Source: Vulcanimicrobiota bacterium (GTDB taxonomy: Bacteria; Vulcanimicrobiota; Vulcanimicrobiia; Vulcanimicrobiales; Vulcanimicrobiaceae). From it: 58,482 bases of DNA. This document shows positions 17,443 through 55,590 of the stretch, piece by piece. The position numbers and the translations under genes are program-made. The stretch spans positions 1 through 58,482 of the forward strand of contig JAQBPK010000284.1 of assembly GCA_028287565.1 (NCBI GenBank), in the 5' to 3' direction. Under the pieces are notes generated by a model. That model was not told the origin of the DNA, did no database searches, and was given only the letters and a program-made list of their open reading frames with translations. The first letter of the stretch is position 1. Every line of letters begins with the position of its first letter.

Positions 17443-18252
17443 GGTGCACGCACGACGTTCGCGATGGATGTGCCTTTTCCACGCACTTTTTGACCAAGGC
17501 AGGCCTCTAAGCTCGCGGTCGTAGGCCGAAGCGGCACGTTGCCGGCGCGCCCGGGTCGCGCGTCGGCAATGCGAACTCAACGTGTACGTCCGCCCTGCCA
17601 CAGATTTTCGGTCGACCTTCATTGCAGGGCAACCATGCCCCATGCCGTGCCGTACCGGGATCGGAACCCTTGTGCCTTACTGCTTTGGCGCTGCGGCGGA
17701 CAAGCTGGAATGCTGTCTCCCTGATGGCGGGCGGGAACGACGGAGTCTATTGGACCGTGGACGGTTTGACGCCACAAACTCGCGAAACTCGACGCGTTCG
17801 GACGCGCGGTCGTGCCGCTCGGCCAGCTCAGCGAGTCGACTCACACGCTTACGTTCGGAGCGACGGCGACCAAGCTCGATCAGCAAGTCTGCTTTCGCCC
17901 TTTTTCAGGAGCCGGCTGACTCGGAATCCATAAACTGAACTTCGACCGTCACAACAAGCGTGCTCGTGACGTGCGATCCGGCTGGCACCGACCGAGCTCA
18001 CATCGGTCGAGATAATCCAGTCTGCGGAAATCGCAGAACGCGATCGCTTCAAGATAACGCAGCTCTGTCCGATACGCCGCGATATCATTGCGGAAGGAAC
18101 GCAGCAAGGCGCGGAGATGGCGACGGTGGCCGGCGATCGTCGCCGGGTCGCCGCGCGCGACGTGTACGGCTACCCAAACGAGGCGGGCCAATCGGCTGGT
18201 GATGCTGTTTCGGTCAGGGCGCGGCAGGCGCGCGAAAGGGCGCGCCCAAGCG
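17443..18252. other. Gene-poor stretch before the first repeat cassette
   Basis: About 800 bases with only fragmentary open frames on both strands. The best is on the minus strand (see 17949-18191). No RNA gene or IS homology was recognised. Confidence 0.35.
17949..18191 (-). CDS. Possible small hypothetical protein or gene fragment
   Basis: From TTG 18191 an 80-residue frame reads LARLVWVAVHVARGDPATIA, HRRHLRALLRSFRND and AYRTELRYLEAIAFCDF before the stop. Codon third positions are moderately GC-rich, as expected for coding sequence here, but there is no ribosome site and the upstream frame runs into the repeat cassette. It may be the tail of a lost gene. Confidence 0.25.
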   Translation of the reverse strand: MARLVWVAVHVARGDPATIAGHRRHLRALLRSFRNDIAAYRTELRYLEAIAFCDFRRLDYLDRCELGRCQPDRTSRARLL

Positions 18253-18340
18253 TTCGACGCGCGTGCTCGAAGCGGGCGGGTGTCATTCGATGTATCTCCA
18301 TCGGGTGACGGACTCGGCCGGTGTTCCCCCACCGGCCGAG
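18253..18340 (+). ncRNA. Structured element A of cassette 1
   Basis: Three consecutive hairpins: TTCGA/TCGAA (18253-18271), GTCATTCGATG-(6 nt)-CATCGGGTGAC (11 bp including two G-U pairs) and CTCGGCCGGTG-(6 nt)-CACCGGCCGAG (11 bp perfect). The wobble pairs form only in the plus-strand transcript. Conserved GCTATAGGTTGTGC follows. Whether it is transcribed is unknown. Confidence 0.4.
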
Positions 18341-18377
18341 TTGCTATAGGTTGTGCGAGCGGACTACCGTGCGGTCC

Positions 18378-18698
18378 TCACGACCACACGATGCCGCCTT
18401 CCGCCAAGTACATCTCCATGGACGCCATCGCGTCATCCTGGTGCTTGTGCAGCTTCATCGCCAGCAGGATCTCCGCGTGGTCCGCGGCGGCCTGGAGATC
18501 TTCCGCGACCGCTCCTTGCCGCCGCGATACGGTCGCCAGGAGAAGTAGCGACACGAGCCCGTTTGGACCGCACGAGCTCTCGTAGGTGAGGAACGCTTCG
18601 CGCAGCTTGCGTTCGCGTTCGGTGGCGGCGGACCGGGTCCAGTCGATCCCGAAGCGCGTGAACGTATCGGGGGCTTTGAACGGTACGACGTTTCTCAT
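18378..18698 (-). CDS. Conserved small helical protein of the repeat cassette (copy 1)
   Basis: A 106-residue protein starting MRNVVPFKAPDTFTRFGIDW. The middle and end are helical (ERERKLREAFLTYESS, LLLLATVSRRQGAVAEDLQA, ADHAEILLAMKLHKHQDDAM), with no membrane helix or known motif. The copy at 54502 differs at only three residues (T13A, A-to-S and M-to-T near the end), although the two genes differ at many nucleotide positions, mostly third codon positions. That pattern indicates selection on the protein. It lies between hairpin elements A and B and is transcribed opposite to them. Function unknown. Confidence 0.8.
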   Translation of the reverse strand: MRNVVPFKAPDTFTRFGIDWTRSAATERERKLREAFLTYESSCGPNGLVSLLLLATVSRRQGAVAEDLQAAADHAEILLAMKLHKHQDDAMASMEMYLAEGGIVWS

Positions 18699-18729
18699 GC
18701 TGCGTCGCTCCGCTGTGCGGGCCGGGTGG

Positions 18730-18821
18730 TCGACGCGGGCGCGTCGAATGGGCGGTCTGTCATTCGGTGGATTCTCCCATCGGGTGACGGGCCCGGTCAG
18801 TGTTACCGCACTGATCGGGCC
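18730..18821 (+). ncRNA. Structured element B of cassette 1
   Basis: Same architecture as element A: TCGACGC/GCGTCGA, GTCATTCGGTGG-(6 nt)-CCATCGGGTGAC (12 bp with three G-U pairs), then GGCCCGGTCAGTG-(6 nt)-CACTGATCGGGCC (13 bp with one G-U). On the minus strand the G-U positions become A-C mismatches, so the plus-strand RNA is the better folder. A further hairpin follows at 18833-18865. Confidence 0.4.
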
Positions 18822-18960
18822 GCTTCGTTGCGGATCATGTGCGCACGTTCACCGTGCGCGTGATCTACCGATCACATAGCACATTTCCGGTGTTTGGGGA
18901 ATACTCGCGCAGCTGCCGCGGCGCACTAGCGCAACTTGGACGTCTATGCGACAATGAAGC

Positions 18961-29605: not shown

Positions 29606-32600
29606 CTACGGCAAACGCGCGTACAGCCCGAAGCGAACGGCGTAGTTGATCGCGGGGAACGGCGCGGATGCAGCGCCGGCCGCGGTGAGTTCCTCCTGCG
29701 TTGCGCCGGCCACGGATGCGCACTGGATCACCGCGGAGCGAAGGTCAGCGTCGGTTGTCGTCGTTTCGATCCATATTGTGCCGGCCGACTCCCGTCGCTT
29801 GAAGGTCCAGCCGTCAGGCGCCGGCACTGCGGCATCCGGCGTTGCTGTTGCGAAGGCGGCGAGCGCTGTAAGGTAGGTTTCCGCAGCGGGACGCAGTGCC
29901 GTCGTGCACGACGCGGCCGCGCGCAGCTTCAGCGGATCCGTCGGAGGCTTCGACGGCAACGCGGTAAAGCGCTGCGTCTGCGTTCCGGGGCGCTTCGCGT
30001 TTCCGCCGCGGACGAAGAGTGGCGTGTACAAGCCGACGTTCGGCATATAGACGAAATCAAGGTTCTCACCGCGCGCGGGCAAGTAGAGGCCGAGCGCCTC
30101 TTCCTGATCGCGCGTGCCGTTGTGAATGTAGGCGCAGGACGCGAGCGCGCGCAATGCGGGGATGCTCGTCGCCGTCACAGTGACTGCATATGAATCGCCG
30201 ACCTCGCGATACGCGAGCTTTACGTCCTGCTCGCCATCGAACGACAACGCGGTTCCGCTCCCGTGGGCGCGGCGTTCCTGCGCTGCCAACGTTGCGGCCT
30301 GGTCGATGCGGCGTAGCACGCGCTCCGCGAGCCGTGCTTCGTTGATGAAGCAATTCGGGTTCGTCTTATCGAGCTGAAACGGGCTGGTGCCGGGCGGGTC
30401 GCCGAACGCGGTCGGCGCTAGGCTAATTTCAGCGGATACATCCTGGTCCGGCGGCGCCGCGATTCTGGCCGGCAGCGGCGCACCGGCCGACATCGTATAG
30501 GTGAGATAGACCGCGCGCGGCGCAAGCGGCGTCGCGATCGTCGGCAGCGGAGCGGCGCCTCTGCGCGCGAGCGGAACTGCGTTTGCCGGGGTGCCGAGTG
30601 TGCCGCCGAACGCGTTCGTGAGGTTGTCCGCTGTGAGCTGCAGGTGGCCCTGCCGTAGTTTTACGTCGAGCGCCGCGGAGAAGGTCGTGTACGCCGGCAG
30701 ATTGTTCGCGTTGTTTTCCGAGGTGTGCCGGGCGCCCGCGACGACGGTCAGCGCGTCGGTATTCTTGGGTCGCCACGATACGACGGCGCTCGCTGTATGG
30801 AGGGGTACGTTGGGGAGTTGCGATCCCGTGAGGACGTATGAGTAGGGATTGTCGAGACGGGCATCGCGCGAAGCAATCGTCGCCGACTGCACGCTGTATG
30901 CTCCTTGCAGGGCGAGCCGTGGCGACAGCGCGAGGGCGAGCGATGCATTGAGACCTTGATACGTGCGCGCAGCCGTGATCGGAACGGTAACATAGACGTC
31001 GCTGGGAGCCAGCGTCGCGGGCGCGCAGCCGGGCTGGCGCGAGTACGCGGCCGACGCGTCGTCGAAATACGACGTGCCGCCGGGGAAAAAGTTGAGCGGT
31101 AAGGCTGCGCCGCTAACGGGCACGGCGAGCGGGGTTCCGCTCTCCGTTTGCCGGTACACCCCGACATTCGCCCGATACGAACCGGTCGAGCGGCTCCAGC
31201 CGGCTCGCGTCGTCGTCGCGTTCGGATGCGAACGGACGTCGCCCGGTCCCGATCCGCTCGCGGATCGCGCGTTGCAGTCAAACGTGAGCGCCGACGGCGG
31301 GGTGACGAATCCGCCCGAGATCTCGGTAGCCGATACGTCCCCTGATGTAACGTCGAAGGTATACCGGTCCAATCCGTTGGGAACGTAGTTCAGCGACGCG
31401 CCGTAGACCGCATTCGCGCGCGCCGGCGCCGTGTGCGCAAAACCTGTCGTGAGACGAGCGGTCAATCCAGCGGAGACCTTGACGCTATCGGTCAGCGCGA
31501 GACGGCTCGACGTCGACGCGGCGACAGCATCACCGCCACCTGACATCCCAGCCAGCGTCTCGTTCTTGCCGATCACGTATCCGCTCAGCGCCAGAGCGTG
31601 CCGGCTCGGTCGAAAGCGCACGTCGAACGTACCGCCGCGGCTCAGAATCGTATCGATCGACCCCGACGGTGCGGGCTGGCCGCCTACGTAGCGCCGGCTG
31701 AAGTCGGTGGTATTCCGCTCTTGCGTCGCGAACGCCGTAACGCGTATCGTGGTGGAGCCGCTCAGAATCGCATCATCGAGCTGGACGCGCCGGATGTCGC
31801 CGTAGGCGCGGTTTCCGGGTCCGTAACCGCAGGGCAGTGCGCCCGTCTGTCTGGCGCAGACGAGATCCTCGGAATAGTGGGACTCCAGCGCGACGCCTGT
31901 CAGCGTCTGGTTCGGCCCCAGCGTCGTACGAAGCTTGCCGACGTTCCCGACCGAGCGCGATACGCCGGCGTGTGGGTAGCGCAGTCCGGACGTGTCGAGA
32001 AAGGTCTCGCCGAGCAGTCCGTTCGCGACGTTGCGTTCGGCGTGGAGTGCCGAGTACCCGACCGAGCCTATCGTTCCGCGATCGAGCGCCGTAAACGCGC
32101 TATGTCCGTCGAAGGCGTTTTGGGCGGTCGCGGACGAGCTGTGGGCGAGGGCCGGATCGACGGTTCTCAGGTTCACGGTGCCGCCGAGAAAACCGAACTG
32201 CGGTTCGTTGCTTACCGACAGGCTACCGAAGAGATCGGCGTTCAGGCGGCTGCCGTTGCTGAATGCGGGAACGCCGTCGATTGCAAGCCCGGTAGCCGCC
32301 GGATCGTGACCGCCGATCGAGATACCGGTTATCAAGGCTCCGGCCTGGGAGCTCGTCTGGACGCCGGGCAGATATGATAGCGCATCGCCGAGTGATGGAA
32401 CCAGCTCGCGAAGAGTCGACGACGCGGCAACGGTCGTACCGTCAGTGTCTGCCGGGCGCGCTTTGATGCTGCCGATCGTCTTAAGCGCGCCGCTTCCCAA
32501 CGCCACGTCGAAGTGTAAGCCTTGCGCGTCGGCGATCGTGAATAAAGCCGTCGTGTTCGGCAGATAGCCTTGCTTGCTGATGCGCGCTCGGTATTGGCCC

Positions 32601-53677: not shown

Positions 53678-54337
53678 TCACTGACGCTCCGTACGCGGGT
53701 AGAGCAGTTGCATCGTGTCGCGCACCCCATTGAGGACCTGCGTGCCTGGTGCAATGTCCAGCATCTTCGTAATATCCATCGGATCTGCATAAATGATCTT
53801 GCGCTCCGCAAACCGCGCGAGAGGTCCGTCAGCTTCATGGGGTTGCGATGCGAGCAGGGAGCGGACATAGGCCTTTTCCATACCTTCGCCGCCGCTGTCG
53901 ACGCCGCCACTGGTGTTCACCGCTCGCGAGACGGGACACAGCCGCAAGTAAGGGTGTGAGTATCCGCGGAGCCTGATGGCGTGACGATTCTGCACGTGAT
54001 CCAGGACGTATTCGGGCGCGAGCGGCGGCATGCGGAAGCTCAGGTACGCCGCCCGATACCGGCGGTAATCGACGTGTACCCACACCTGTCTAGCCGGATG
54101 AAGTTGCGCTCGGTAGAAGCCGGCGCGTGAATCATGCCACAATGCGACGCGCGGGTCTTCGACAGGCGCGGGTTCATACGGCTCGACCAGGAGCGCGTTG
54201 ATACGCCCATCGCCGCCGACGATTCTATCGTTCACGGCGCCGACATACTCCGCGATCGCTTCGATGCTGGCCGCGGCTATCGGGAGCCACAAGCAAGGCG
54301 GCAGCCCGAACGTGTTCCCGGTCGGATCGACCCTCAC
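53678..54337 (-). CDS. Hypothetical protein
   Basis: 219 residues with good codon use and no signal or membrane segment. Segments such as LWHDSRAGFYRAQLHPARQV, WVHVDYRRYRAAYLSFRMPP and YADPMDITKMLDIAPGTQVL look like an ordered alpha/beta domain, but I do not recognise the family. It reads toward the lipoprotein gene (convergent). The second repeat cassette begins 36 bases upstream of its ATG at 54337. Confidence 0.6.
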   Translation of the reverse strand: MRVDPTGNTFGLPPCLWLPIAAASIEAIAEYVGAVNDRIVGGDGRINALLVEPYEPAPVEDPRVALWHDSRAGFYRAQLHPARQVWVHVDYRRYRAAYLSFRMPPLAPEYVLDHVQNRHAIRLRGYSHPYLRLCPVSRAVNTSGGVDSGGEGMEKAYVRSLLASQPHEADGPLARFAERKIIYADPMDITKMLDIAPGTQVLNGVRDTMQLLYPRTERQ

Positions 54338-54373
54338 GGGCCGTTGTTGTTACCTGAATCCGCGACGTACCTC

Positions 54374-54462
54374 TTCGACGCGGGCGCGTCGAAGCGGGCG
54401 GGTGTCATTCGGTGACTCCAATCATCGAGTGACGGACCCGGCCGGTGTTAGAGCACCGGCCG
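54374..54462 (+). ncRNA. Structured element C of cassette 2
   Basis: Hairpins TTCGACGC/GCGTCGAA, GTCATTCGGTG-(8 nt)-CATCGAGTGAC (11 bp) and CGGCCGGTG-(6 nt)-CACCGGCCG. In the second stem, a U-G pair of the other copies is replaced by U-A, keeping the pairing. Followed by the conserved GCTATAGGTTGTGC. Confidence 0.4.
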
Positions 54463-54501
54463 AGTCGCTATAGGTTGTGCAGGCTTGCTACTGTTCGATC
54501 C

Positions 54502-54822
54502 TCACGACCACACGATTCCGCCCTCCGCTAAATACGTCTCCATCGACGACATCGCGTCGTCCTGGTGCTTGTGCAGCTTCATCGCCAGGAGGATCTCGGC
54601 GTGGTCGGCGGCGGCCTGGAGATCCTCCGCGACCGCTCCTTGGCGTCGCGATACGGTCGCCAGGAGAAGAAGCGACACGAGGCCGTTTGGGCCGCACGAG
54701 CTCTCGTAGGTGAGGAATGCTTCGCGCAGTTTGCGCTCGCGTTCGGTGGCGGCGGATCGGGTCCAGTCGATCCCGAAGCGTGCGAACGTGTCGGGGGCTT
54801 TGAACGGTACGACGTTTCTCAT
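54502..54822 (-). CDS. Conserved small helical protein of the repeat cassette (copy 2)
   Basis: 106 residues, starting MRNVVPFKAPDTFARFGIDW, and identical to the copy at 18378-18698 except at three positions. The surrounding hairpin elements and spacing are conserved too. Helical, no membrane segment, ending YLAEGGIVWS. Many synonymous differences between the copies mean that they have been separate for some time while the protein was maintained. Function unknown. Confidence 0.8.
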   Translation of the reverse strand: MRNVVPFKAPDTFARFGIDWTRSAATERERKLREAFLTYESSCGPNGLVSLLLLATVSRRQGAVAEDLQAAADHAEILLAMKLHKHQDDAMSSMETYLAEGGIVWS

Positions 54823-54853
54823 GCTGCGTCGCTCCGCTGTGCGGGCCGGGTGG

Positions 54854-54945
54854 TCGACGCGGGCGCGTCGAATGGGCGGTCTGTCATTCGGTGGGTCTCT
54901 CCATCGGGTGACGGGCCCGGTCAGTGTTCGCGCACTGATCGGGCC
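54854..54945 (+). ncRNA. Structured element D of cassette 2
   Basis: TCGACGC/GCGTCGA, GTCATTCGGTGG-(6 nt)-CCATCGGGTGAC and GGCCCGGTCAGTG-(6 nt)-CACTGATCGGGCC, the same three stems as element B with different loops. A fourth hairpin follows with outer stem GCGGAT/ATCCGC, differing in sequence from cassette 1, where the outer stem is GATCA/TGATC. Confidence 0.4.
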
Positions 54946-54972
54946 GCTTCGTTGCGGATTACGTGCGCACGT

Positions 54973-55590
54973 TTACCGTGCGTTCGATCCGCCGATGGTA
55001 TAGCACACTTTCGGTGTTTGCGGAATACCTTGGCGCGTTCGGCTGAAATCAACGTCCTTCGTCTCGACGGTGCCCGCCGTACGTCCCGGCGCGGTGTGGT
55101 AGCTCCAGTAGAGGTTCGTGTGCGCGATGACCTGGTTTGGCGGCGGAGCGCCCCATTCGGTTAGGTCGTCCGTCGTGTGCGCATCGCTCACGAGCGTCGC
55201 ATCGTATCCCCTGACCAGTGCGCCGCGAAGCGTCGAGCGAATGCATTCATCGGTCTGTGCGCCGGCGACGAACAGCCGCCCGACTCCGAGACCCGACAGC
55301 GCGCTTTCGAGCGTGGTCTCCTCGAACGCATCGCCGTAGCGCTTGTGCACGAGCGGCTCGGCTTCGTCCGGCGTCAGCTCCGGGACGATCCGCCAGTTGT
55401 CGCTGCCGCACGCAAGTTTCTCGCTCGTGTGTTGGACCCAGACAACGGGGACGCCGTCCCGCCGCGCCTTCTCGACGAGGTTGCCGATGTTCGCGACGAC
55501 CGCGTCGCGGTTGTGAGCGTTCTCCACGACGCCGTTCTGCACGTCGACGACCAGGAGCGCTGTGTTAGGGCGGTTCGCGAGCGTGGCCAT
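54973..55590 (-). CDS. Isochorismatase-family cysteine hydrolase
   Basis: 205 residues. The catalytic aspartate is in ALLVVDVQNGVVENAHNRD (about D16), and the nucleophile cysteine in VAGAQTDECIRSTLRGAL; between them PVVWVQHTSEKLACGSD and LVHKRYGDAFEETTLE follow the family. ATG 55590 has GGAGAG five bases upstream. Homologs end near the ETKDVDF segment; here about 23 extra residues (from SRTRQGIPQTPKV) are encoded by the tail of the repeat cassette. Substrate unknown (amide or isochorismate-type). Confidence 0.88.
   Translation of the reverse strand: MATLANRPNTALLVVDVQNGVVENAHNRDAVVANIGNLVEKARRDGVPVVWVQHTSEKLACGSDNWRIVPELTPDEAEPLVHKRYGDAFEETTLESALSGLGVGRLFVAGAQTDECIRSTLRGALVRGYDATLVSDAHTTDDLTEWGAPPPNQVIAHTNLYWSYHTAPGRTAGTVETKDVDFSRTRQGIPQTPKVCYTIGGSNAR

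Follow-up and report, generated by a model that had tools for sequence, protein, structure and literature searches.

In Escherichia coli, the antisense RNA SymR overlaps the ribosome binding site and the start codon of symE, which encodes a toxin of about 113 aa and which, like tisB and dinQ, is LexA-regulated (PMC4147584). In the case of hok, Sok acts via the coupled leader ORF mok (PMC4147584). PafBC, for its part, is a DNA-damage activator of mycobacteria (PMC6789036, PMC11804915). At the ptaRNA1 and symR loci, the antisense RNA has its 5′ end opposite the AUG of the toxin gene. We compared with these systems a repeated element of the candidate phylum WPS-2/Eremiobacterota; in 42 copies of this element, the structure of the predicted antisense RNA overlaps the ribosome binding site and the start codon of its target.

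The element was found in the window, i.e., the whole stretch of 58,482 nucleotides analysed. Here, positions 18253-18904 and 54374-55027 can be aligned pairwise over 655 bp with 89.3% identity, which bears out the duplicated cassette described in an earlier note on this DNA. The parts that it listed are present in each copy, namely two three-hairpin elements, an antisense 106-aa ORF (ORF2), a fourth hairpin and a GGAATAC tail. The few residue changes and many silent ones ascribed to the protein correspond to 3 nonsynonymous versus 20 synonymous codon differences and therefore indicate purifying selection. The meaning of these parts had to be revised. Rather than a unit present in two copies, the cassette belongs to a family with 18 copies in the window's genome; the elements on either side of the 106-aa gene do not bound one mobile unit, but each forms the 5′ end of one of two consecutive minus-strand units (a and b); and the GGAATAC tail is complementary to the -35 side of the promoter that unit a has on the minus strand. 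The description as structured RNA plus one protein holds for the plus-strand structure and the single conserved protein, whereas the promoter, Shine-Dalgarno sequence (SD), AUG and leader ORF of the minus strand had been missed. Since these minus-strand signals lie at the elements, a plus-strand RNA would be antisense over a translation start. The features of both copies are collected in the table.

Table. Features of the two window copies (R2, covariance model of the element; H0-H3, hairpins and palindrome).
Feature	Position	Strand	Details
Predicted antisense RNA, copy 1 unit a	18759..18831	+	R2 80.6 bits; strand bias, covariation
H2, copy 1 unit a	18759-18788	+	Over SD and AUG of minus-strand leader ORF
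H1, copy 1 unit a	18790-18821	+	
U-rich tail, copy 1 unit a	18822-18831	+	
Predicted antisense RNA, copy 1 unit b	18282..18352	+	R2 78.7 bits; subthreshold PtaRNA1 match 18280-18346
Predicted antisense RNA, copy 2 unit a	54883..54955	+	R2 80.7 bits
Predicted antisense RNA, copy 2 unit b	54404..54476	+	R2 76.1 bits
ORF2, 106-aa protein MRNVVPFKAPDTF..., copy 1	18378..18698	-	Purifying selection
ORF2, 106-aa protein, copy 2	54502..54822	-	
ORF1 remnant, copy 1	18695..18763	-	22-codon leader MTDRPFDAPASTTRPAQRSDAA; ATGA overlap with ORF2 start
ORF1 remnant, copy 2	54819..54887	-	Identical 22-aa leader
H3 palindrome TCGACGCGGGCGCGTCGA	18730..18747		In codons 6-12 of the leader; conserved at the DNA level, without strand bias
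H0 (fourth hairpin of the earlier note)	18833..18865	-	5′ end of minus-strand transcript; no strand bias
Promoter region	18873..18904	-	TGnTATG -10-like; plus-strand GGAATAC = -35 side
Unit b coding remnant, copy 1	18018..18286	-	Leader MTPARFE... frameshifted; HTH remnant 18018-18269
Unit b, copy 2	54334..54408	-	24-codon leader only

A DNA search of the window's genome gave 21 matches. With a covariance model of the element, 18 strong copies were recovered in the window's genome and 24 in a sister species of the same genus, and the remaining genomes have 5, 2, 1 or zero copies each. Overall, 8 of 149 genomes of the phylum contain the element, all from one family. The leader looks like a start signal repeated about 20 times per genome before different small genes. 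Scans of IMG/VR with the exact leader pattern and with a third pattern gave none; a looser pattern gave 8 contigs, which were judged chance matches (best R2 score 18.4 bits, second hairpin missing). In the window itself, a weak match to the antisense model at 32426-32501 of the plus strand (16 bits) is probably due to chance.

In nearly every copy, the element sits on the minus strand between promoter and start codon. Read in this direction, a TGnTATAAT-like -10 sequence is directly followed by H0, then by H1, H2 and about 14 conserved codons. H2 encloses an SD of the GGAG type together with ATGAC, while the conserved leader codons (MTxxxFDAxAS) contain H3, a perfect palindrome of 18-20 bp in many copies, without strand bias. 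Three types of operon follow the leader. In type A, an HTH protein of 83-99 aa (ORF1) has a stop codon that overlaps the start of ORF2 (ATGA); in type B, ORF1 is followed by a different ORF; in type C, a leader of 33 codons precedes a protein of 96 aa, in some cases together with an XRE regulator. At one locus (L013), a DprA-like gene lies downstream of ORF1, after a type B operon. In both a-units of the window, ORF1 is cut to the same 22 codons; the b-units, which lie directly after ORF2 and have no promoter of the unit-a kind, are decayed.

As to the encoded proteins, 12 of 20 ORF1 members match the PafC HTH, and there are HTH_11 matches as well; ORF1 also has relatives in the HTH of WYL/WCX regulators from other WPS-2 genomes. 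ORF2 occurs at 27 places, full or partial, confined to two genomes. In line with the association of hairpins and protein proposed earlier, the element lies upstream of the intact ORF2 homologs inspected, but it also precedes unrelated genes. Searches of Pfam, PADLOC, PHROGs and NCBIfam with ORF2 and the type C protein gave no usable match; ORF2 has no relative by sequence in the PDB, and no likeness to known toxins was found in any of these five collections. A protein-based search of the genome contigs also gave no match. Remnants were also noted (L009, L010, L011): some are shortened ORF2 copies without leader, and in L011 (G000:C266), promoter and H0 are joined directly to the middle of ORF2. 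Downstream of ORF2 at L005, positions 1236-1280 form a strong perfect stem followed by T6, which matches the plastid psbA 3′ UTR model with 37 bits, below the cut-off, and is surely an ordinary terminator.

Divergent leaders were found before a serine recombinase (L110/L146) and before SWIM zinc-finger proteins (L108, L109). Four others (L147-L150) stand on the first genes of operons near an M15 endolysin-like gene, a tape-measure-like gene and integrases, and we read these regions as prophage or mobile early regions. For instance, at L149 (G000:C327:58000-77000) and L147 (G008), both prophage-like, the early operon opens with a divergent leader opposite a ribbon-helix-helix-like gene.

The structure is strongly asymmetric between strands. 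In the long stem of H1, the 42 copies contain 489 Watson-Crick pairs, 53 U-G pairs that form on the plus strand only (A-C on the mRNA strand) and a single G-U pair restricted to the minus strand, in line with the earlier statement that several stems use G-U pairs possible only in the plus-strand transcript. Parsimony on a tree gives 13 gains of plus-type wobbles versus 1 of the minus type, next to 15 changes from one Watson-Crick pair to another. The plus strand has 96.8% of its stem cells paired (99.4% in H1), and 12 pairs are altered on both sides; none of the 500 shuffles and none of the slid controls reached these values. H2, separated from H1 by 1 nt, contains up to three A-C positions when read as mRNA, and its stems covary in divergent copies (CGAUG/CAUCG, CGAGA/UCUCG, CGAAAG/CUUUCG); in two copies, a base is inserted on both sides of the stem together. 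Furthermore, the antisense strand folds more stably in 52 of 52 copies, with a mean advantage of 13.9 kcal/mol, while random windows of the same contig have a mean strand difference of 4.0 (sd 5.1). The positive controls have the same asymmetry (ptaRNA1, -42.4 vs -26.6 kcal/mol; symR, -41.4 vs -29.8 kcal/mol), and H0, the 5′ hairpin of the mRNA, serves as an internal control without strand bias. If it holds, such a strand-specific wobble bias would provide a test for antisense RNAs that needs only sequence and no expression data.

Signals that could delimit the RNA were also considered. The plus strand 3′ of H1 is T-rich (GCTTTAGTTGT), with 50-88% T at most of positions 3-11; this is what a weak intrinsic terminator would be expected to look like, but for the window copy the antisense strand yielded no consensus terminator. 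In leader codons 6-14, third positions are fixed while the amino acids vary, with codon 7 (G.C) and codon 14 (C.G) as examples; this pattern suggests that a signal of the other strand is conserved here at the DNA level. The signal within the first 14 codons is plausibly an antisense promoter; a sigma-70 promoter scan of the antisense strand of the window copy returned none.

Comparison of covariance models was used to relate the element to described RNAs. No Rfam family matches at gathering threshold; nevertheless, the PtaRNA1 model gave full-length matches at 18280-18346 on the plus strand and at another copy, with 22.9 and 26.6 bits, i.e., below gathering cut-offs of 47 or 61 bits (47 bits for PtaRNA1, RF01811), and the symR model a subthreshold match on the antisense strand of a prophage-type copy. 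In the reverse direction, the best match of R2 is ptaRNA1 itself, at the right place and on the right strand in 4 of 4 plasmid loci (34.8, 23.7, 21.3 and 19.1 bits), whereas nothing else in the 58-kb window apart from the elements scores above 16.0. At symE of E. coli, R2 also finds the right place, but with only 11.5 bits, and therefore homology to symR is not claimed.

The promoters suggest a link to DNA damage. A GAAC-N4-GTTC box with at most one mismatch is present in 27 of 42 promoters, compared to 2.8% of shuffled sequences. Both window copies are without a good box; in copy 1, none was found in the promoter region listed in the table. In the window's genome, the LexA box is CGAAC-N4-GTTCG, of the Gram-positive type (loci L022, G000:C38 20324-20337, L025, L028 and L037). 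The lexA promoter of this genome carries the box (CGAACGCTCGTTCG and CGAACGTATGTTTG upstream), as do the sequences preceding a RecA/ImuA-like gene and an ImuB-like locus, and the exact palindrome has 36 sites in this genome versus 6 for a control pattern. Six copies of the genome G007 (L086, L090, L092, L096, L097 and L099) have a second promoter type without LexA box, in which TTAGGTATG is conserved at a distance of about 30 bp upstream of the -10.

Taken together, the sequence evidence makes it probable that the cassette consists of two successive small minus-strand operons of the SOS type, the translation start of each being controlled by a plus-strand antisense RNA in a SymR/ptaRNA1-like manner. 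This RNA, of about 70-75 nt, would lie opposite SD and AUG; its promoter would be situated within the first ~14 codons and its 3′ end at H1, and it would block translation of the leader. Since ORF2 overlaps the leader stop by ATGA, such a block would also silence the 106-aa protein, as Sok does via mok. Upon DNA damage, sensed through LexA, the mRNA might rise above the antisense RNA and the protein be released, as in SymE/SymR, and the HTH ORF, related to the PafC/WYL type, may be an additional regulator, of which the window copies retain only decayed forms.

The same hairpins could instead act in cis, H1 and H2 forming a translational switch or a put-like antitermination RNA in the leader of the minus-strand mRNA, without any antisense RNA. 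The presence of SD and AUG within H2, the position of H0 right behind the promoter and the divergent copies in phage-like early operons would suit such a role; moreover, the put RNA of phage HK022 consists of two stem-loops with a one-nucleotide gap, the same spacing as here. We regard this reading as unlikely, because 53 stem cells of H1 and up to three positions of H2 are A-C mismatches in the mRNA, while the antisense strand has almost none; an HK022-put-like leader was rejected, as the structure lies on the other strand. As DNA, G-T pairs would yield an equal strand bias if the plus-strand hairpins acted as single strands, e.g., while a mobile element is being transferred or replicated, with the operon position secondary, and the high and patchy copy number would agree with it. 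Each copy, however, is placed at a fixed distance from SD and start codon, no transposase, relaxase or flanking repeats were seen at the copies, and both the anatomy and the model matches favour antisense RNAs, which makes this explanation very unlikely.

Even less probable is that the palindromes are operators bound by a protein as double-stranded DNA. Such a function would explain a perfect palindrome of 18-20 bp without strand bias in many copies, and for H3 alone it may hold, but it leaves the strand bias and the conserved G-U positions of H1 and H2 unexplained. To a MITE-like or IS-derived repeat that carries promoters by chance we assign the lowest probability: the copies are dispersed, their distribution is patchy and remnants exist in the genome, yet the duplicated block has neither terminal inverted repeats nor shared ends, the leader stands at the 5′ end of ORFs and ORF2 is under purifying selection. 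An IS/MITE mobile element was thus rejected, since the edges of the block have no inverted repeats or defined ends and the inspected copies contain no transposase, an absence that the earlier note had already pointed out; the unit that it called mobile or dispersed is dispersed, and very probably no mobile element of the IS/MITE type.

Going beyond control by an antisense RNA at these operons, we can only tentatively suggest that SymR, ptaRNA1 and the element form one superfamily of portable antitoxin-RNA cassettes, which move onto unrelated genes, phage early operons included, and have multiplied in WPS-2 bacteria until each genome contained about 20 of them. In this view, the portable parts would be a LexA or phage promoter, an antisense RNA over SD/AUG and an antisense promoter within the first codons. 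If this were true, control of the SymR/ptaRNA1 type would not be bound to one toxin family but would be an exchangeable promoter-leader cassette that an uncultured phylum and phage-like operons have as well, and a large SOS-inducible set of small uncharacterised proteins would be predicted in WPS-2.

Among the known systems, the PafBC/WYL factors resemble ORF1, which matches the PafC HTH and the N-termini of WYL regulators; unlike them, ORF1 consists of the HTH alone and lacks WYL and WCX domains. With hok/mok/sok, the element shares the placement of a (here predicted) antisense RNA on a leader ORF that is translationally coupled to the next gene (PMC4147584), whereas the sequences are unrelated and the leader is here a decayed HTH gene. 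SymE/SymR of E. coli resembles it in the antisense RNA, here predicted, over ribosome binding site and start codon, in an mRNA that may here be LexA-regulated too, and in an ATGAC start; on the other hand, the mRNA is here a two-ORF operon, the match between R2 and symR is weak, and ORF2, with no match in Pfam, NCBIfam or PDB, is no recognisable SymE homolog. As for ptaRNA1, its loci encode a “type I toxin-antitoxin system ptaRNA1 family toxin” on IncP/proteobacterial plasmids, while the element is dispersed in WPS-2 with several cargo genes; an NCBIfam search of ORF1, ORF2 and the other cargo revealed no toxin of this family, the proteins are unrelated, and the element scores under the Rfam cut-off. 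The claim that no known element is matched therefore stands at curated Rfam cut-offs, but not for the anatomy, which fits SymR and ptaRNA1. Indeed, the predicted two-hairpin RNA starts at the complement of the target AUG, as PtaRNA1 (RF01811) does, and shares with it a UU/GG wobble step in the first hairpin, which covers SD/AUG, as well as a second hairpin rich in GC, a CGCUUU tail and mutual covariance-model matches.
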